Shown piece after piece: positions 13,731-35,704 of a stretch of 40,050 bases of DNA (position 1 is its first letter; the number at the start of each line of letters is the position of its first letter). The stretch lies in contig JAQAJI010000009.1 of assembly GCA_028278665.1 (NCBI GenBank), positions 1 to 40,050 on the forward strand, given 5' to 3'. Both the position numbers and the translations under genes were made by a program. The notes under the pieces are model-generated. The model had not been told where the DNA came from and made no database searches. It saw only the letters and a program-made list of their open reading frames with translations. This DNA comes from Candidatus Rariloculus versatilis. GTDB taxonomy: Bacteria; Pseudomonadota; Gammaproteobacteria; Steroidobacterales; Rariloculaceae.

Positions 13731-13768
13731 CGAAACTGGAAATCGCGCCTATCGTGTGGAGTCGGCAT

Positions 13769-14620
13769 GTGAAGAAAGTCTCAATTGTCATCATGGCCGG
13801 CGCCGCGCTCTGCGCTTTACCGGCCCCTGCGCAATTCAACCTGGCCGGGTCCTGGGCTCAACGCCAGCACGAAGACCGGGGCGAGCGCGGCGGAGGACCG
13901 CAGATCGGCGACTATACGGGCTTGCCGATCAACGATGCGGCCCGGCTGCGTGCCGACACCTGGAGTCCTGACCAGTGGACGGTCCCCGAGCATCAGTGCG
14001 AACCGCACCCGATCGACTATGCGCCGCTGGGTCCCGCCAGCATGCTCATCACCGCAGACCATGACCCGGTGTCCTACGACGTCATCGCCTGGCACCTGAC
14101 CTTTGCGTGGATGAATACGACCCAGACGATCTGGATGGACGGCCGCGAGCACCCGCCCGAACAGGCCCCGCGCACCTGGATGGGCCATTCGGTGGGCCGT
14201 TGGAAGGGCGACATTCTCGTCGTCGACATCTCCCACGTGAAGGAGGGCTGGATTCGCCGCAACGGAGTCCCGCGCAGCGATCTGGCGAAGATCACGCAGT
14301 ACTGGATCCTGCACGAGGACATCCTGCAACTGGTGACGGTTGTCGACGACCCGGTCTACCTGGAAGAGCCGTCGGTGCGCAGCGTCGCCTGGCAGGCACA
14401 CACCGGCTACCGGATGGGTCCGTACCCCTGTTCGGCGCGCGTGGAACTTGACCGACCGCGCGGCTATGTTCCGCACTACTTGCCCGGCGCCAATCCGCTG
14501 CTGCGCGATTTCTCGGAGGAGTCAGGCATACCCTGGGAAGCCACGCGCGGCGGCGCCGAGCAGATGTACCCGGAGTACCAGGAGGTACTTAAGCGCCTGC
14601 TCAGCGAGGATGCGCAGTGA
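13769..14620 (+). CDS. Secreted protein of the DGR-H/GDxLVVD family, function unknown
   Basis: A 283-residue exported protein. GTG 13769 is chosen since GGAG lies seven bases upstream and gives a clean signal peptide MKKVSIVIMAGAALCALPAPAQ. The mature part starts FNLAGSW and carries WMDGREHPP (near 129), GHSVGRWKGDILVVD (near 145) and VDDPVYLEEP, the signature shared with four other proteins in this window (15582, 30649, 32295, 34592). Family members are common next to PQQ dehydrogenases and TonB receptors in Proteobacteria and Acidobacteria but have no known activity. It is first in a three-gene operon; its TGA overlaps the GTG start of the MBL hydrolase (GTGA). Confidence 0.85.
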   Translation: MKKVSIVIMAGAALCALPAPAQFNLAGSWAQRQHEDRGERGGGPQIGDYTGLPINDAARLRADTWSPDQWTVPEHQCEPHPIDYAPLGPASMLITADHDPVSYDVIAWHLTFAWMNTTQTIWMDGREHPPEQAPRTWMGHSVGRWKGDILVVDISHVKEGWIRRNGVPRSDLAKITQYWILHEDILQLVTVVDDPVYLEEPSVRSVAWQAHTGYRMGPYPCSARVELDRPRGYVPHYLPGANPLLRDFSEESGIPWEATRGGAEQMYPEYQEVLKRLLSEDAQ

Positions 14621-15585
14621 ACTCGCGAGCGTATCGACGCTGGGCAGGCGCGCTGCCCCTGCTCGCCATCGCAGCCGCATCGCTCGCACAGGACGACAGC
14701 CGCGACGGCGAGGAGCCCCCGGCGCTGAGTGTCATCCCGGTGCAGGGCAACGTCTACCTCATTGCAGGGGCCGGCGGCAATATCGCGGTGCAGACCGGCG
14801 ACGACGGGGTGCTGGTGGTCGATACGGGTCTGCCGGAGAACGCCGAGCGAGTGCTCGCTGCAATCCGCACCCTCAGCGACAGGCCGATTCGCTTCGTTGT
14901 CAACACGCACGTGCATCCGGACCACACCGGTGGCAATGGAACGATCGGCGCTGCCGGTACCAACGAGGGTTTTCGGGACGCGCTCAGAAGCGAACCCGTA
15001 GTTCCGATTTACGCCCACGAGACGGTGCTGCACCGGCTCAGCGGCGCCATCGAAGACCCGATCGACCTGCCGGTCCGTTCCTGGCCGATCGATACCTACC
15101 ATGTCGACAAGTTCGACATGTACTTCAATGGCGAATCGATCCAGCTCCGCCATCAGCCCAACGCGCACACCGATGGCGACAGCATCGTCTGGTTCAGGCG
15201 CTCCGACGTCATCGCCACGGGCGATGTCTACCTGACCACGAGCTACCCGTTCATCGATGTCGCACGCGGCGGCAGCCTGCAGGGCATCATCGATGCGCTC
15301 AACGAGTTGCTCGATCTCATGATCCCGGACCGCAACGAAGAAGGTGGCACACTTGCGATTTCCGGCCACGGTGCGATCTCGGACGAATATGAGGTGGTCA
15401 ACTATCGCGACATGCTCACGATCATTCGCGACCGGATCGTGGCACTCATCGACATGGGAATGACGCCGGAGCAGGTCAAGGCCGCGCAACCCACGTTTGA
15501 CTACGACGGCCGCTACGGCATCGATTCGACGCTCTGGTCCACGGAGCGGTTTATCGAAACCATCTACGAGGAGTACGCCGAATGA
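14617..15585 (+). CDS. Secreted metallo-beta-lactamase-fold hydrolase
   Basis: A 322-residue zinc hydrolase with a signal peptide (residues 1-25, ending ASLAQ). The metal site is complete: THVHPDHTGG supplies His98, His100, Asp102 and His103, with His184 (PNAHTDGDS), Asp203 (ATGDVYL) and His251 (SGHG). The fold and order place it with periplasmic MBL proteins of broad type (lactamase-like, glyoxalase-II-like or quinoprotein-associated hydrolases); the substrate cannot be named. It lies between two secreted proteins of one family, with 4-base overlaps on both sides (GTGA at 14617-14620, ATGA at 15582-15585), so the three products are made in step and probably act together outside the cytoplasm. 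Confidence 0.92.
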   Translation: MNSRAYRRWAGALPLLAIAAASLAQDDSRDGEEPPALSVIPVQGNVYLIAGAGGNIAVQTGDDGVLVVDTGLPENAERVLAAIRTLSDRPIRFVVNTHVHPDHTGGNGTIGAAGTNEGFRDALRSEPVVPIYAHETVLHRLSGAIEDPIDLPVRSWPIDTYHVDKFDMYFNGESIQLRHQPNAHTDGDSIVWFRRSDVIATGDVYLTTSYPFIDVARGGSLQGIIDALNELLDLMIPDRNEEGGTLAISGHGAISDEYEVVNYRDMLTIIRDRIVALIDMGMTPEQVKAAQPTFDYDGRYGIDSTLWSTERFIETIYEEYAE

Positions 15586-16397
15586 ATCGAACCGGAGTTG
15601 CGTGTTCCGAACGCCTGGTCCGTCGCACGTCGGTCCTGCTCGCCGTGCTTTGTATCGCCTGCTCCGTAACTGCCGCACGCGCCCAGTTCGGCGGCGGCGC
15701 ACCGCCGCTTTCGGGCCGCGAAGGCGCCGCGCTTGACCTGACCGGCACCTGGGTTTCCGTAGTCGGCGAAGACTGGCGCCACCGCATGATGACGGCGCCG
15801 AAGGGAGACTACGAAAGCCTGCCGCTGACGGCGACCGCACGCGCACTGGCCGATGAATGGGACCCGCAGGCGGACATCGCCAATGGCGAAGAGTGCAAGG
15901 CTTATGGCGCGCCGGGCGTCACGCGCATGCCGGGACGCATGCGCATTTCCTGGGAGGATGACGAGACGCTGAAGCTGGAATTCGATGCCGGTCGGCAAAC
16001 GCGACTGCTGCATTTCGACGCGCCCGATGCGTCGGGCCCGCCGAGCAGCCAGGGACACTCGTTCGCCGAGTGGCAGAAACTCGCACAGAACCGAGGGTTT
16101 CGCGGCGGTACCGGCGGGACGGTCGCGCCGCAGCCGGGCGGACCCGGCTCGCTTGCCGTGAAGACGACCAGGCTGTCGCCGGGATACCTGCGCAAGAACG
16201 GGGTGCCCTACAGCGCCGATGCACTGCTCACCGAGTACTTCGATCGACTCGATCTGCCGCACGGTGAGCAGTGGCTGCTGCTTACGACGATCGTCGACGA
16301 TCCCGAGATGCTCACCGAACGGCTCGTCGTCAGTTCGCAGTTCAAGCGCGAACCGGACGACTCGAAGTGGAATCCGACGCCCTGCCGCGCGATTTGA
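15582..16397 (+). CDS. Secreted protein, divergent member of the DGR-H/GDxLVVD family
   Basis: A 271-residue exported protein, third gene of the MBL operon. Its ATG overlaps the hydrolase stop. The signal peptide runs to about residue 30 (TAARAQF). The mature chain has LTGTWVSVVGEDWRHRM, a central ISWEDDETLKLEFDAG, then LAVKTTRLSPGYLRKNGVPYS, LLTTIVDDPEML and a C-terminus KREPDDSKWNPTPC. The RKNGVP and VDDP elements match the first gene of the operon, but the GDxLVVD segment has diverged to GSLAVKT. A role in the same extracellular process is inferred from coupling only. Confidence 0.82.
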   Translation: MNRTGVACSERLVRRTSVLLAVLCIACSVTAARAQFGGGAPPLSGREGAALDLTGTWVSVVGEDWRHRMMTAPKGDYESLPLTATARALADEWDPQADIANGEECKAYGAPGVTRMPGRMRISWEDDETLKLEFDAGRQTRLLHFDAPDASGPPSSQGHSFAEWQKLAQNRGFRGGTGGTVAPQPGGPGSLAVKTTRLSPGYLRKNGVPYSADALLTEYFDRLDLPHGEQWLLLTTIVDDPEMLTERLVVSSQFKREPDDSKWNPTPCRAI

Positions 16398-21201: not shown

Positions 21202-22980
21202 ATGATTCGTACCACACTCACCGACCCTGCGACCCGCGCCACGCTGACCATTGCGGCGCTCGCCTCGCTGCTAGGCAACCTGCTTTGCGTCCAGGCCACC
21301 GCACAGGAGAGCGAGTTCATCCCCGTCACGGACGAGATGGTGCAGAACCCGGACCCGGCCGACTGGCTGACCTGGCGGCGCACGCTCGATCACTGGGCCT
21401 ATAGTCCGCTTGAGCAGATCGACCGCGACAACGTCTCCGGGCTTCAGCTCGTATGGACGCGGCCGCTGTCGACGGGAATTCAGGAAGGCACTCCGCTCGT
21501 CTACGACGGCGTCATGTACTTCCCCGGTCCCGAGGACATCACGCAGGCACTGGACGCGGCGACCGGCGACCTGATCTGGGAGTATCGCAGGCCCTATCCC
21601 GACGACGTCAACGACTACATCCCCTTCCCGTCGATCAACCGCAACCTCGCGATCTTCGGGAACTACATTTTCGACAACGGCAATGACAACTACGCCTACG
21701 CGCTCGATGCGCGCACCGGCGAACTCGCCTGGGAAACGCAGATTCTCGACTACCGGCGCGGGGCGCAACACACCTCCGGGCCCATCATCGCGAATGGCAG
21801 GGTCGTATCGGGCCGCGGCTGCGAACCGGAGGGAGGACCCGAGGCCTGCGTGATCACGGCTTTCGATCCCGCGACGGGCGAGGAACTGTGGCGCACTCGA
21901 ACAATCCCGGCTCCGGGCGAACCCGGCGACGAAACCTGGGGCGATATCCCCTACGAGGAGCGCCGCCATGTCGGCACGTGGATGATCCCGAGCTTCGATC
22001 AGGAACTGAACCAGGTTTATATCGGTACCTAGGTCACGTCGCCGGCGCCAAAGTTCATGCTGGCGGGCAACGATGAGCAATACCTGTATCACAATTCGAC
22101 ACTGGCACTCGATGGCGATACCGGCGAGATCGTCTGGTATATGCAGCATGTCGTCGATCACTGGGACCTCGATCATCCGTTCGAGCGGCTGCTCATCGAT
22201 ACTGCCGTGACGCCCGACCCCGGTTCGGTCGAATGGATCAGCCCGCGCGTGCGCCCCGGCGAGACCCGCCGGGTCCTGACCGGCATTCCCGGCAAGACGG
22301 GTCTCGTCTACACGGTCGACCGCGAAACCGGCCAGTTCCTCTGGGCCCGGGAAACGGTCATGCAGAACGTGATCGCCGAGGTCAACACGGAATCGGGCGC
22401 GGGGGTCATCAACGAGGAAAACCTCTTCACGGGCGCCGATCAGGAGCGCTTCATTTGCCCGAGCCTCAACGGCGGCAAGAACTTCCCTTCCGGCGCCTAC
22501 AGCCCGCTGACCGGCCTGATGTACTTCCCGCTGCACAACACCTGCGCGGAGATGATTTCACTCGCCGAAGAACCGAGTCTCGACGAACTCTATGCGATCG
22601 ACTCGCGCATCGTGCTCCCGCCGGGTGTTGAGAACGCCGGAACCATCGAGGCCATTTCCGTGGAGACGGGCGAGACCGCCTGGAAGCTCGAGCAACGCGC
22701 CGGCGCGACGTCGCTCATGACGACCGGCAGCGGGCTTCTGTTCGGTGGCGACACGATGGGCATGTTCAAGGCGTACGATCAGGAGTCGGGCGAGGTGCTC
22801 TGGGAAGTCAGTCTCGGCTCGCACGTCACGGGCTATCCGGCGACGTATGCCGTCAACGGCCGGCAATACGTCGCGGTCAGCACGGGCGGCTCGCTGAATA
22901 CGCTCTCCATCGCGAACCTCGCACCCGAACGGCGCGCCGCTACGGCGAACAACCTGTACGTTTTCGCGTTACCGGAATGA
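21202..22980 (+). pseudogene. PQQ-dependent dehydrogenase, copy 1, interrupted by one in-frame TAG
   Basis: Periplasmic quinoprotein dehydrogenase (beta-propeller). ATG 21202 has GGAG eight bases upstream and a signal peptide ending ATAQES. The reading frame covers 593 codons, exactly as in copy 2 at 23351, with no indel, but codon 277 is TAG (22030-22032) where copy 2 has TCG (Ser): IGT-stop-VTSPAPKF. Tryptophan-docking repeats (LIWEYR, LAWETQ, LWRTRT, TAWKLE, VLWEVS), GCEPEGGPEACVITAFD and the catalytic-Asp region VDHWDLDHPFE are all kept, and differences from copy 2 look mostly silent or conservative. The stop is therefore young, read through, or a sequence error. An internal restart at 22057 would lack the signal peptide and half the propeller. 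Confidence 0.9.
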
Positions 22981-30215: not shown

Positions 30216-30617
30216 ATGCGGATATCGACGTGGAGCCTCGCCTGTGCGCTGCTCGTACTCGGCGCTGTCGGGGCTGCGAGCGCGCAAGAGGGCCATCCGC
30301 TCAAGGGCTCATGGATCGGCACCTGGGAGTCGAACGAAACTCACGGGGAATTTGTTCTCGTCGTGCTCGACTGGGACGGCGAGCGGGTCTCGGGCATCAT
30401 CAATCCTGGCACGGACAACATCGAGATCGCCGAGGCAACGCTCGATCCGGCCGAGTGGACCATCCGCATCGAAGCCGACGCGGCGGATCGCGACGGCAAC
30501 GCGGTTCATTACATGATCGAGGGCACGATCGAGGATCTCGAGCTGCCAAACCGCTATATCACCGGAACCTGGCAGCATGATGGCGGCGGCGGTGCGTTCG
30601 AGATTCGCAGGCAGTAG
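30216..30617 (+). CDS. Small secreted protein of unknown function
   Basis: 133 residues from ATG 30216 with AAGGAG eight bases upstream. A signal peptide of about 23 residues ends ASAQEG. The mature protein starts LKGSWIGTWESN and alternates short hydrophobic strands (FVLVVLDWDGERVSGIINPG; RYITGTWQHDGGGGAFEI), suggesting a small beta-barrel, lipocalin-like but without a diagnostic motif. It precedes the fused DUF6152-type gene by 31 bases and is probably co-transcribed with it. Ends with TAG. Confidence 0.8.
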   Translation: MRISTWSLACALLVLGAVGAASAQEGHPLKGSWIGTWESNETHGEFVLVVLDWDGERVSGIINPGTDNIEIAEATLDPAEWTIRIEADAADRDGNAVHYMIEGTIEDLELPNRYITGTWQHDGGGGAFEIRRQ

Positions 30618-30648: not shown

Positions 30649-31782
30649 ATGACAACAGCAGACGTGAATTCGCGTTCGACGGCAGCGATGCTCGCGACGG
30701 CCCTGGTCGCGTTCGCCCCGGCGGCGGCCTTCGCGCACCACCCGATTCACGGCAAGTTCGACCCCGCTGCGGATCTGACGCTGACCGGAGTCGTGACGTA
30801 TGTCGACTGGCGCAATCCCCACGCGCACGTCTTCATGAACGTGGGCCAGGGAGACGAAACGCTGAACTGGGCGGTTGAACTGGAGAGTCCGATCGATCTC
30901 GAGGCGAACGGCTGGACGCAGGCCACGGTGCTGCCCGGCGACGCGATCACCGTAGCCGGCATCGTCGCGCGCGACGGCACGCGCCAGATCTGGGGCGAGA
31001 CGGTCGTTCGCAGCGACAGCGGCAGCCAGGTCTTTGAAGTGTCGCTCGAAGCGCCTCCGCCGCCGCTCGCGCCGCGGCCGGCGCCTCGCTGGCCCGACGG
31101 ACGACCGGCACTCGGCGGAACGGCCGACGCCATCGACGGCTACTGGAGCTTCCCGAGTGCGACGGCGCTCGTCGAGGACGGCGTCGACGTCGCGATGAAC
31201 TCGAGCGGCCTGCTCGAGAATCCCGATGACGCGGGAAGCGTCGCCCCGATGCAGCCCTGGGCGCTGGCACTGTACCGCCACCGCCAGGACCGTTCGCTCC
31301 GGGACGACCCGATGTACCTCAACTGCAAGCCGCCCGGGGGTCCGCGCCAGTACATGTCCCATCACGGGTTTCAGCTCATCGAGGACCGTGAGCGCGAGCG
31401 GGTCTTCGTGCTGCTTGGAAGCGGCAACCGCAACTACCGGGTCATCTACCTCGACGGGCGCGAGCATGTCGGTCAGGTCGGCGGCGACGACGACAATCCG
31501 CTCTATTACGGGCGCTCTGTCGGAAACTGGGAAGGCGATACGCTCGTCGTCGACACGCGCGGATTCAACGAGGATTTCTGGTTTACGAGCGGCGGCCTTC
31601 CTCATACGAGCCAACTCAGGCTCATCGAGCGGTTCACGCGAACGAATCTCGAGACGCTTGAGTACGCAGTGACTATCGAGGACCCGGGTGCCTACACGCG
31701 ATCGTGGACGAGTAGCTGGACGCTGCGCTGGGTCGGCGGCGAAGACCTGCCGTTTCATCTTTGTCAGCACAACAGGCCTTGA
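30649..31782 (+). CDS. Secreted two-domain protein: DUF6152-like domain fused to GDTLVVD-family domain
   Basis: 377 residues from ATG 30649 (GGAG six bases upstream; the upstream ATG 30577 lies inside the previous gene). The signal peptide ends AAAFAHH. Domain 1 (about 27-135) has HHPIHGKFDPAADLTLTG, VVTYVDWRNPHAHVFMNV and ITVAGIVARDGTRQIWGE, like the DUF6152 proteins; the conserved His pair starts the mature chain. A Pro-rich linker (APPPPLAPRPAPRWP) follows. Domain 2 has YLDGREHVG, GRSVGNWEGDTLVVDTRG, FNEDFWFTSGGLPHTSQL and VTIEDPGAYTRSW. The same two domains occur as separate genes immediately downstream. Biochemical role unknown. Confidence 0.85.
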   Translation: MTTADVNSRSTAAMLATALVAFAPAAAFAHHPIHGKFDPAADLTLTGVVTYVDWRNPHAHVFMNVGQGDETLNWAVELESPIDLEANGWTQATVLPGDAITVAGIVARDGTRQIWGETVVRSDSGSQVFEVSLEAPPPPLAPRPAPRWPDGRPALGGTADAIDGYWSFPSATALVEDGVDVAMNSSGLLENPDDAGSVAPMQPWALALYRHRQDRSLRDDPMYLNCKPPGGPRQYMSHHGFQLIEDRERERVFVLLGSGNRNYRVIYLDGREHVGQVGGDDDNPLYYGRSVGNWEGDTLVVDTRGFNEDFWFTSGGLPHTSQLRLIERFTRTNLETLEYAVTIEDPGAYTRSWTSSWTLRWVGGEDLPFHLCQHNRP

Positions 31783-31801
31783 GTAACACGCGAGGGCGAC
31801 A

Positions 31802-31830
31802 CTGCCAGCGCAACGATGTTGAAGTAGAAT
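31802..31830 (+). promoter_or_regulatory. Candidate promoter of the DUF6152 gene
   Basis: CTGCCA (31802-31807) and TAGAAT (31825-31830) are exactly 17 bases apart. The -10 box is followed by CG as before the amidase and MBL operons. It begins about 20 bases after the fused gene ends, so the split pair may be transcribed separately. Confidence 0.45.
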
Positions 31831-31876
31831 CGAGGGGAAACGCCTCGGCCTGGAGGCAACTATTTGGAGCCGTGAA

Positions 31877-32293
31877 ATGAAAGTACATGTTCTTGCTGGA
31901 GTGGTCGCAGCCGGCACGCTGCTGGCGGGAGCGCAGAGCATTGCGCATCATTCGTTCTCTGCGGAGTTCGACAGCAACAAGCCGATTTCCCTGACCGGCA
32001 TCGTCACCAACATCGAATGGACCAACCCGCACGTCTGGTTCTACATCAACGTTCGGGACGAGGAATCAGGCGAAGTCGTGAACTGGGGCGCGGAAATGGG
32101 CCCGCCGCACGGGCTGCAACGCCGGGGCTGGCGCCGCAATTCGCTGCAGATCGGCGAGGAAGTCTCGGTTGACGGTTTCCTTGCACGCAACGGCAGCAAC
32201 CGTCTCAACGCGAGATCGGTGACGCTGACCGCGACGGGCGGGCGGCCGGGCGAGACGCTCGACGCGAATTCCAGTCGCCAGGGCGACGAATGA
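31877..32293 (+). CDS. DUF6152 family secreted protein
   Basis: 138 residues from ATG 31877 (GGAG seven bases upstream). The signal peptide ends AQSIAHH. The mature part begins HHSFSAEFDSNKPISLTG, then IVTNIEWTNPHVWFYINV, VNWGAEMGPPHGL and SVDGFLARNGSNRLNARS, which is the DUF6152 pattern as I know it. A beta-rich small domain whose N-terminal His-His could bind metal, but no function is established. One base separates its TGA from the next ATG (TGAGATG), so the two are tightly coupled; together they mirror the fused protein at 30649. Confidence 0.88.
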   Translation: MKVHVLAGVVAAGTLLAGAQSIAHHSFSAEFDSNKPISLTGIVTNIEWTNPHVWFYINVRDEESGEVVNWGAEMGPPHGLQRRGWRRNSLQIGEEVSVDGFLARNGSNRLNARSVTLTATGGRPGETLDANSSRQGDE

Positions 32294-32294
32294 G

Positions 32295-33107
32295 ATGCGC
32301 GGACGTAACCGCCTGATTATGATCGTCGCCGCGGCACTGCTCGCGACGGCGCTGCCGAGCGAGTGGGCGGACGCACAGCGCCGCCAACGCGATCCGGACG
32401 CACCGCCGCCCGGTCCCGTGCCGCGTACGGCTGACGACAAGGTCATGCTGACCGGAGGCCCGGGGGACGAGACAGGGGTGTGGGAGCCAATGTTCGGGAT
32501 TTTCGACCCGATCGCGCCGGCCGACGAAGTCCCGTTCCAGCCCTGGGCGCGCGCACTGTATGACGCGCGCCAGATCCACGAGCTCGAGCCGCACGCGCGG
32601 TGCAAGGCGTCGGGCATCTCGCGGCAGTTTCTGACGCCTTACGGGGTGGAGATCCTCGAACTGCCGGAACTCAAGCGTCTGTATATCTTCGACATCGGCG
32701 GGCCGCATACCTTCCGCACCGTTTACATGGACGGGCGCACGCATCCGAAGAACCCGACGCCGACGAACTACGGCCACGCGATCGGCTGGTGGGAAGGCGA
32801 TACGCTCGTCATCGACAGCGTCGGGTTCAATGAGGACTTCTGGTTCGAACGCCGCGGCCTGCCGCACACGGAACAACTGCACACGATCGAGCGCCTGACG
32901 CGCGTTGACGCATCGACGATCGAGTACCGCGTCACCATCGATGATCCCGGAGCCTACACTGCACCATGGACGGGCGGATTCGACCTCAATTGGGAACAAG
33001 GCACGGAACTTTTCGAGTACATCTGCCAGGAAGCCAACTACGCGCACGAACTCATGGTGGGCAGCGAAGCATCGTCCGTCGACCGAAGCAGCCCGATCGT
33101 TCCCTGA
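32295..33107 (+). CDS. Secreted GDTLVVD-family protein
   Basis: 270 residues from ATG 32295. Signal peptide about 1-25 (ending WADAQ). Mature landmarks: VYMDGRTHPKNPTP, NYGHAIGWWEGDTLVIDSVG, FNEDFWFERRGLPHTEQL, HTIERLTRVD and VTIDDPGAYTAPW, closest in this window to domain 2 of the fused protein at 30649. The N-terminal part PGDETGVWEPMFGIFDP and YDARQIHELEPHARCKA shows a single Cys typical of the family. Coupled to the DUF6152 gene upstream; the P450 gene follows after 51 bases. Confidence 0.87.
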   Translation: MRGRNRLIMIVAAALLATALPSEWADAQRRQRDPDAPPPGPVPRTADDKVMLTGGPGDETGVWEPMFGIFDPIAPADEVPFQPWARALYDARQIHELEPHARCKASGISRQFLTPYGVEILELPELKRLYIFDIGGPHTFRTVYMDGRTHPKNPTPTNYGHAIGWWEGDTLVIDSVGFNEDFWFERRGLPHTEQLHTIERLTRVDASTIEYRVTIDDPGAYTAPWTGGFDLNWEQGTELFEYICQEANYAHELMVGSEASSVDRSSPIVP

Positions 33108-34591: not shown

Positions 34592-35704
34592 CTACTGATG
34601 CACGTAGTCTTCGTCGAACCAGAAGTCCGGGTCCGTCAGCGGGGGCTTTTCACCGGGCGAGTACTGACTGACGACTCCGTCGTCGGTAACGAACCACTGT
34701 GAACCTTCGACGCAATCCCACTGATGCGGCCAGACGCGCTCCTTCGCCTCGGCCGAGCGGTCGTCTTCCTTGTAGTAGGCGACGACGGTGTGCCAGGGCT
34801 CGACGAAGGTCGGGTCGTACATCGTGATTTCGATTTCGATGCGCTCGGTCGGAATGTACTCGGCGCCGAACGTTTCTGGTTCGATCTCAACGCCTTCGGC
34901 CATCGGATCGACCTTGCGCCAGCGTTCAATGGTTTGCATCTGGCTCGTCTGGCGCGGCATGTTGCGCTGCAGGATGCCTTCCTTGATCCCCTTGGTCCAG
35001 ATCGTGAGAACATCCTCGTCCCAGAAGCCGATCGAATAGCCCAGCCATTCATTCGTCAGCCATTCCTCGGACGGATGCGAGCGTCCGTCCGTAAATACGC
35101 GCCTGAACTGATTGACCATCTCGCTGCCGAGCACCGTCTTGTCGGGCGCCAGGAAATTCTCCCGGTAGCCGTACTCGGTGAACCAGCGCGGGAAGTTGGG
35201 CGGCAGGCAGAACGAGAGCGGGTCGATGGCGTGGTCCTCTCTCCACATCTGGAAGTCGCGCTCGAAGACCTCGCGCGCTTCCGGAGTCAGCCGCACGGCC
35301 ATGCCCTCGGGCGTCGAATGCCGGCCGACGATCGCGATCTCACCCGTGGAATTCTCCGTGCCCCAGTGCCCGCTCCAGTCCGGCAGGCTCGCCATGGTGT
35401 GCTCGGACGGACCGCCGCGGCTCTCGGCATCCTCGAGCAGCGCGTTGTAGTGCTCTTCGGCCGATGCGTAGCCGCAAGGCCCGCCGGGCAACTCGAAGGA
35501 CCCCCAGACGGTCGTGAACTCAAACCGCGCCGACACGCTCTGTGAGGTACCGAGCTCGGGAAATTGCTCCGCAAGCGGCACGCACTCCGCAGCAGCATCG
35601 CCGCTCTGAGCCCATGCGGCCTCACCTGCCGAAAAAAGGATCGCAACTCCCGCGAGAAACATCCCTGCCACGGTCGCCAGACCGCCAAGATATTTGTTGA
35701 TCAT
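34592..35704 (-). CDS. Secreted protein, long divergent member of the GDTLVVD family
   Basis: 370 residues from ATG 35704. The signal peptide runs to about residue 33 (GEAAWAQS). The middle contains FTDGRSHPSEEW, LGYSIGFWDEDVLTIWTKG and MQTIERWRKVDP, aligning with DGRxHP, GxSxGxWxGDxLVVD and TIERxxRxD of the other members, but GD is ED and VVD is IWT. It is about 100 residues longer, with an N-terminal part holding CVPLAEQFPELG and a C-terminal QWDCVEGSQWFVTDDGV. Transcribed alone on the minus strand. Ends with TAG. Function unknown. Confidence 0.82.
   Translation of the reverse strand: MINKYLGGLATVAGMFLAGVAILFSAGEAAWAQSGDAAAECVPLAEQFPELGTSQSVSARFEFTTVWGSFELPGGPCGYASAEEHYNALLEDAESRGGPSEHTMASLPDWSGHWGTENSTGEIAIVGRHSTPEGMAVRLTPEAREVFERDFQMWREDHAIDPLSFCLPPNFPRWFTEYGYRENFLAPDKTVLGSEMVNQFRRVFTDGRSHPSEEWLTNEWLGYSIGFWDEDVLTIWTKGIKEGILQRNMPRQTSQMQTIERWRKVDPMAEGVEIEPETFGAEYIPTERIEIEITMYDPTFVEPWHTVVAYYKEDDRSAEAKERVWPHQWDCVEGSQWFVTDDGVVSQYSPGEKPPLTDPDFWFDEDYVHQ

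Follow-up and report, generated by a model that had tools for sequence, protein, structure and literature searches.

The locus described here encodes, next to each other, a fused and a split version of the same pair of predicted secreted domains, namely DUF6152 (D) and a second domain that contains a GDTLVVD motif (G). By their phylogenetic distribution, these genes form an ancient cassette, and the cassette belongs to a family of D-G paralogs that can number from tens to more than 100 in one genome. The conserved histidines of D and the predicted folds suggest that a metal-binding D with an N-terminal His and a ligand-specific G barrel function as one module that was diversified by duplication, a general reading that, in our estimation, has an even chance of being correct. 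All positions refer to the window, that is, the whole stretch of 40,050 nucleotides of Candidatus Rariloculus versatilis DNA that was analyzed.

Fused and split D-G genes

The features of the cassette are as follows.
30216 to 30617, + strand: H, predicted secreted protein of 133 aa that opens the conserved H-F-D-G cassette, without a Pfam or NCBIfam match above the cut-off; homologs beside F, D or G genes elsewhere
30649 to 31782, + strand: F, fused D-G protein of 377 aa; from the predicted mature start HHPIHG (30736), after the signal peptide, it runs through an OB-fold D domain and a linker to a calycin-like G domain (folds predicted)
30736 to 30741, + strand: His-His at the predicted mature N-terminus of F, preceded by ...AAAFA
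31877 to 32293, + strand: D, stand-alone DUF6152 protein of 138 aa, predicted mature start HHSFSAEFD; PF19649 match of 99.8 bits; 79% identical ortholog in L127
31946 to 31951, + strand: His-His at the predicted mature N-terminus of the split D, preceded by ...QSIA
32295 to 33107, + strand: G, stand-alone predicted barrel protein of 270 aa with a GxW motif, two invariant Cys and an invariant Asp-Pro

The frame of F is open from 30577, with an ATG at 30649, an AGGAG upstream of this position and the stop at 31782. At the curated Pfam cut-off of 27 bits, both F (73.0 bits) and the split D are members of PF19649 (DUF6152). The second domain has no Pfam or NCBIfam match above the cut-off, and the fused protein retrieved no match when its sequence was searched against the PDB. 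Between the fused and split forms, the D domains are 31% identical over 94 aa (E = 4e-17) and the G domains 44% identical over 183 aa (E = 4e-51), so the homology of the two forms, as judged from these alignments, is well past chance. Thus, the open reading frames, the PF19649 scores and the D and G alignments bear out the original prediction of a fused gene beside separate genes for the same two domains. The predicted coupling of the split genes by one base is exact: the TGA of D (32291-32293) is followed by a single G nucleotide and then by the ATG of G at 32295. The predicted span, 30649-33107, consists of real genes but leaves out the first gene of the conserved unit, H.

The H-F-D-G cassette and its age

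Homologs of H with 42-64% identity adjoin the genes for F, D or G in L127, L128, L129, L130, L132, L135 and others; one copy of H is present among the loci of the window's genome that were examined. The order F-D-G is conserved in eight named genomes beyond the window, five from Gammaproteobacteria (L127, L128, L129, L130 and L135) and three from Acidobacteriota (L132, L139 and L140). Gene trees were built separately for D and G from clean alignment sets (A6 and A7); mixed alignments of D, G and fused proteins were set aside because MAFFT placed fragments on the wrong domain. Both are quick trees on few columns, and therefore weak forks were not used. In the D tree, the split D proteins of the cassette make up a single clade (SH-aLRT 84), apart from the fused D domains, which group together elsewhere; both phyla are represented within each group. 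In the G tree, the fused and split G of the cassette are two sister clades inside a starred group of 19 rows, with the exception of the G that follows the L132 cassette, which is placed elsewhere. Across all paralogs, the fused or split state switched several times, with at least three to four switches on the starred branches of the G tree.

These trees bear on the proposal that a D-G gene was duplicated locally and recently, with subsequent fission or fusion. The duplication itself stands, given the sister relationship of fused and split G in the tree, but its recent and local character is contradicted by the trees: both forms are adjacent in nine genomes of two phyla and fall in separate cross-phylum clades, which argues for an ancient event. 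Furthermore, the best orthologs in another genome are 79% (split D) and 77% (G) identical, compared with the 31% and 44% between the two local forms. We consider a recent local origin very improbable and, on the strength of the trees and the conserved gene order, regard the cassette in the window as an ancient duplicate of the D-G module that has been kept in both fused and split form. One fused ortholog of the cassette (L130:6079-7431) starts with QPAIIAKFD in place of the N-terminal His-His and represents a natural test case.

Expansion and pairing of D and G

The genome from which the window comes (2.9 Mb, 92% complete, 122 contigs) contains 76 DUF6152 matches and 79-98 G matches, where the latter number depends on which query is used and on how split hits are counted. 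Among the 76 D domains, 22 are fused to G and 37 have a G on the same strand no more than 250 bp away, for a total of 59 paired; under the same rule, 17 D and 32 G are unpaired, partly because of contig ends or divergent arrangement. The additional members in the window are as follows.
13754 to 14620, + strand: G paralog, first gene of a conserved G-metallo-beta-lactamase-G cassette
15582 to 16397, + strand: G paralog, last gene of the G-metallo-beta-lactamase-G cassette
34592 to 35704, - strand: diverged G-domain protein of 370 aa, outside the conserved cassette (99.6 bits)

The second cassette (13754-16397), with its order of G, metallo-beta-lactamase and G, is shared with L188 and L139 (Acidobacteriota). 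Elsewhere in the genome, two G copies appear broken (G000:C47:8400-9340, which is L086:4898-5838, and G000:C19:5680-6231), one being split across two frames and the other containing an in-frame stop.

Both domains are present in all 22 genomes of the same taxonomic family that were searched, with 4 to at least 95 copies of D and 3 to at least 142 copies of G, and D is absent from all 17 searched genomes from other families of the same order. Across the 22 family genomes, the number of D rises with that of G (Spearman 0.95, with some counts being lower bounds, which affects the ranks). In a class-wide draw of 229 genomes, the genome under study aside, five had one low-scoring D and one had a G. 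The scan of the collection for D used a narrowed alignment in place of the broad one, which was too diverse. Among the 18 named genomes reached through the loci, most of the metagenome-assembled genomes (MAGs) of Acidobacteriota contain D in the tens and roughly 90 G or more. Exactly one D and one G are found in each of three isolates, Caulobacter sp. CCUG 60055 and Granulicella sp. L60, where the two genes are divergent neighbors, and Occallatibacter savannae, where one ORF call lies between them. Since the matches come from many genomes, isolates included, an assembly artifact is unlikely. One MAG, titled Bordetella parapertussis (L159, L196 and L205), has 46 D and 88 G; such numbers otherwise occur in Acidobacteriota and the family under study, and the name of this MAG is doubtful.

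The status of D and G as paired domains, as originally proposed, is thus upheld by the fused or nearby G of 59 D domains in a single genome and by the three single-copy isolates in which D and G are close, and the proposed secretion of both domains agrees with the signal-peptide rule. The evolutionary distances of D and G within pairs correlate as well, which joint duplication would also produce.

Predicted folds of the two domains

AlphaFold2 models, for which the input alignments consisted of related sequences with loci taken from whole genomes left out, were obtained for the fused protein (pLDDT 85.7, pTM 0.84) and for G alone (pLDDT 87.8, pTM 0.83). The pTM of the fused model is, by itself, no proof of a D-G interface. 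In the model, D has strands at 8-24, 31-38 and 41-48, a helix at 52-57 and strands at 70-78 and 84-92, that is, the five-stranded barrel with a helix between strands 3 and 4 that defines the OB-fold, and its best structural match is PriB (4apv; Z 10.3, rmsd 2.1, 80 aligned residues). The OB-fold matches of D include lysyl-tRNA synthetase and SSB, and these functions were set aside as reflecting a shared fold only.

The model of G most closely resembles, by VIA-align, fatty-acid-binding proteins, CRBPs and NanoLuc (Z 8.0-8.7), with FABP5 as the best match (Z 8.7, rmsd 3.0, 116 aligned residues); a Foldseek search with this model yielded no match with E < 1e-3 (best E 0.015). G also contains the GxW motif at the first strand that is typical of calycins, with G and W each conserved in 180 of 190 sequences (95%). 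Accordingly, G is a candidate calycin-like up-and-down beta-barrel, an assignment at the fold level that is based on the predicted topology, the Z score of about 8.7 and the GxW motif. Beyond this motif, D163 (200/200), G106 (200/200), C49 (198/199), C190 (196/196) and one Glu (96%) stand out among 200 G sequences.

The predicted mature N-terminus and conserved residues of D

All 74 complete D proteins of the genome under study have a His-His pair at the predicted signal-peptide site, with Ala at position -1 in 67 of them and Ala, Val or Leu at position -3 in 61. For the named D, among which nearly all have the pair, the count is partly circular given that one search pattern contained HH, and the unbiased subsets were therefore counted apart: HH is present in 25 of the 26 D found only in flanks, outside the search pattern, in all 14 D that come from elsewhere in the family and in all five remote D from other Gammaproteobacteria. 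Under a crude signal-peptide rule, HH is located at the candidate cleavage site in 59 of 65 D of the genome under study and in 89 of 102 relatives, compared with 0 of 144 G-only proteins and 2 of 556 other ORFs. A third His (H29, in an NPH motif) is conserved in 178 of 180 D sequences, along with E50 (94%) and W47 (93%). In the D sequences, conserved histidines thus occupy positions 1, 2 and 29, and cleavage probably occurs exactly before HH. Two hallmarks of the histidine brace can be recognized in D, a His at mature position 1 (as placed by the sequence rule) and a second conserved His, with both His2 and His29 near-invariant.

Because a free N-terminal His naturally chelates transition metals, we read the mature His-His of D as a likely metal grip. 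In the mechanism that we propose, D and G would each form half of a single module, periplasmic or secreted, produced either as one fused chain or from two coupled genes. The signal peptide of D would be cut directly before the His-His pair, exposing a free amino group and His1 which, together with His2 and/or His29, could hold a transition-metal ion by histidine-brace-like chelation. The G barrel, presumably closed by a disulfide, would hold a small ligand, with sequence variation among the paralogs setting the specificity. With such a variable pocket, duplication would yield many specificities, and a set of tens to more than 100 copies in one genome could devote each copy to a different ligand.

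The fused ortholog in L130 that lacks HH counts against a metal site in D. It is compatible with an alternative in which HH serves structure or export in place of metal binding, and in which the D-G pair binds hydrophobic compounds without a metal. Calycins, for their part, have mainly lipids and other small hydrophobic molecules as ligands. We regard this alternative as quite unlikely: despite the divergence of the family, three His are near-invariant, of which two sit precisely where the mature chain is predicted to begin, the HH start is not a feature of G-only or other secreted proteins, and remote lone D proteins retain HH, some of them in metal-transport surroundings.

Gene neighborhoods and candidate functions

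If D binds a metal, as we favor, the D-G module may function in metal-chelate capture or in ligand oxidation, and the gene neighborhoods bear on both of these candidate functions. Remote lone D genes adjoin those for a FecCD-type ABC permease and ATPase in two genomes of one genus, and others are located near a gene for a DUF411 protein, DUF411 being a copper-associated family. A DUF6644 or similar 4-helix membrane protein is encoded after several remote lone D genes and after those of Caulobacter and Granulicella, and in Caulobacter, D also adjoins a TonB receptor. The single DUF6644 gene of the genome under study (C5:4883) directly follows an unpaired D at C5:4532. This outlying D (L062; G000:C5:4532-5353), which has an AHHGW start and no G partner, resembles the lone D of other Gammaproteobacteria. 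The expanded copies of the genome under study have mixed neighbors, with no single pathway and no clear metal theme; the recurrent ones are PQQ-dehydrogenase, cytochrome c, SnoaL, tannase and amidase, and some outer-membrane receptors are also present. The window itself encodes a P450 and PQQ enzymes, including a PQQ dehydrogenase that seemingly occupies two consecutive ORFs at 21202-22980 (profile positions 1-247, and then a part ending at 595), suggestive of a frameshift or a decayed gene.

The surroundings of the lone D genes, the FecCD-type transporter and DUF411 as well as DUF6644 and the TonB receptor of Caulobacter, are consistent with metal scavenging, whereby D would catch a metal ion or complex, G would bind an organic chelator, and the chelates would be handed to TonB receptors and inner-membrane permeases. 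However, scores of copies are well above the apparent need of metal nutrition, the genome under study has only one DUF6644 gene, and TonB receptors are not prominent among the neighbors there. Although two N-terminal-His families have been called metal anglerases (PMC12537917), we deem such a role rather unlikely.

Alternatively, D-G could be an enzyme in which the metal center of D, copper as in histidine-brace oxygenases, oxidizes a small molecule held by G, such that the paralogs would comprise a catabolic arsenal. The recurrent redox and hydrolytic neighbors point in this direction, as do the P450 and PQQ enzymes of the window and the conservation in G of one Asp (invariant) and one Glu (near-invariant) while the barrels otherwise vary, which is more than pure binding needs. 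Conversely, the neighbors are mixed, the conserved acids are possibly structural, D is found without G too, and we know of no oxidase that combines an OB-fold with a calycin-like barrel. An enzymatic role thus appears fairly improbable as well.

Relationship to known systems and implications

Neither DUF6152, PF19649 and DUF6644, nor the D-G pairing, the N-terminal HH and the expansion of DUF6152, were found to be mentioned or described in the literature searched. G shares with the calycins (lipocalins, fatty-acid-binding proteins and avidins) the predicted up-and-down barrel and the GxW at the first strand, and differs from them in having no sequence-family match and in its invariant disulfide Cys, Glu and Asp-Pro. 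Very large lineage-specific sets of periplasmic paralogs are also known in Bordetella and Cupriavidus, namely the Bug solute-binding proteins, which have the fold of type II periplasmic binding proteins. D-G resembles the Bugs as a very large lineage-specific set of periplasmic binding-type paralogs but has a different fold; Bugs are single-domain proteins without an N-terminal His-His. The Bugs themselves are a large family for which functions are mostly unassigned (PMC11452294).

The logic of an N-terminal His has been used to find the metalloproteins DUF4198, DUF6702, Ang-1 and Ang-2, in a study with no mention of DUF6152 in its main text (PMC12537917), and N-terminal-His metal binding also fits YcnI/DUF1775 (PMC8424229). 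Like these proteins, CopC and LPMOs, D is a secreted protein (by the signal-peptide rule), has His1 after the predicted removal of the signal peptide and contains a further conserved His. It does not belong to DUF4198 or DUF6702, PF19649 being the sole Pfam family above the cut-off. Unlike the beta-sandwich or cupredoxin-type N-terminal-His proteins, D has a predicted OB-fold and a double His with a putative metal site, is fused or coupled to a barrel and occurs in tens to more than 100 copies per genome. We tentatively propose, at clearly less than an even chance, that D-G is a new class of periplasmic metalloprotein system, in which an N-terminal His-His metal site on an OB-fold works together with a ligand barrel that can be exchanged. 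With tens to more than 100 variants in a genome, such systems would constitute a combinatorial set for metal-dependent capture or oxidation of small molecules in whole bacterial lineages.

In a whole bacterial family and in many Acidobacteriota, a few percent of the genes belong to the D-G pair, for which the literature searched offers no function. The invariant predicted mature His-His turns two vaguely defined DUFs into a concrete and cheap question of metal binding, and the single-pair isolates Caulobacter sp. CCUG 60055, Granulicella sp. L60 and Occallatibacter savannae open the way to genetics. If D does bind metal, the OB-fold would be added to the folds known for N-terminal-histidine sites.
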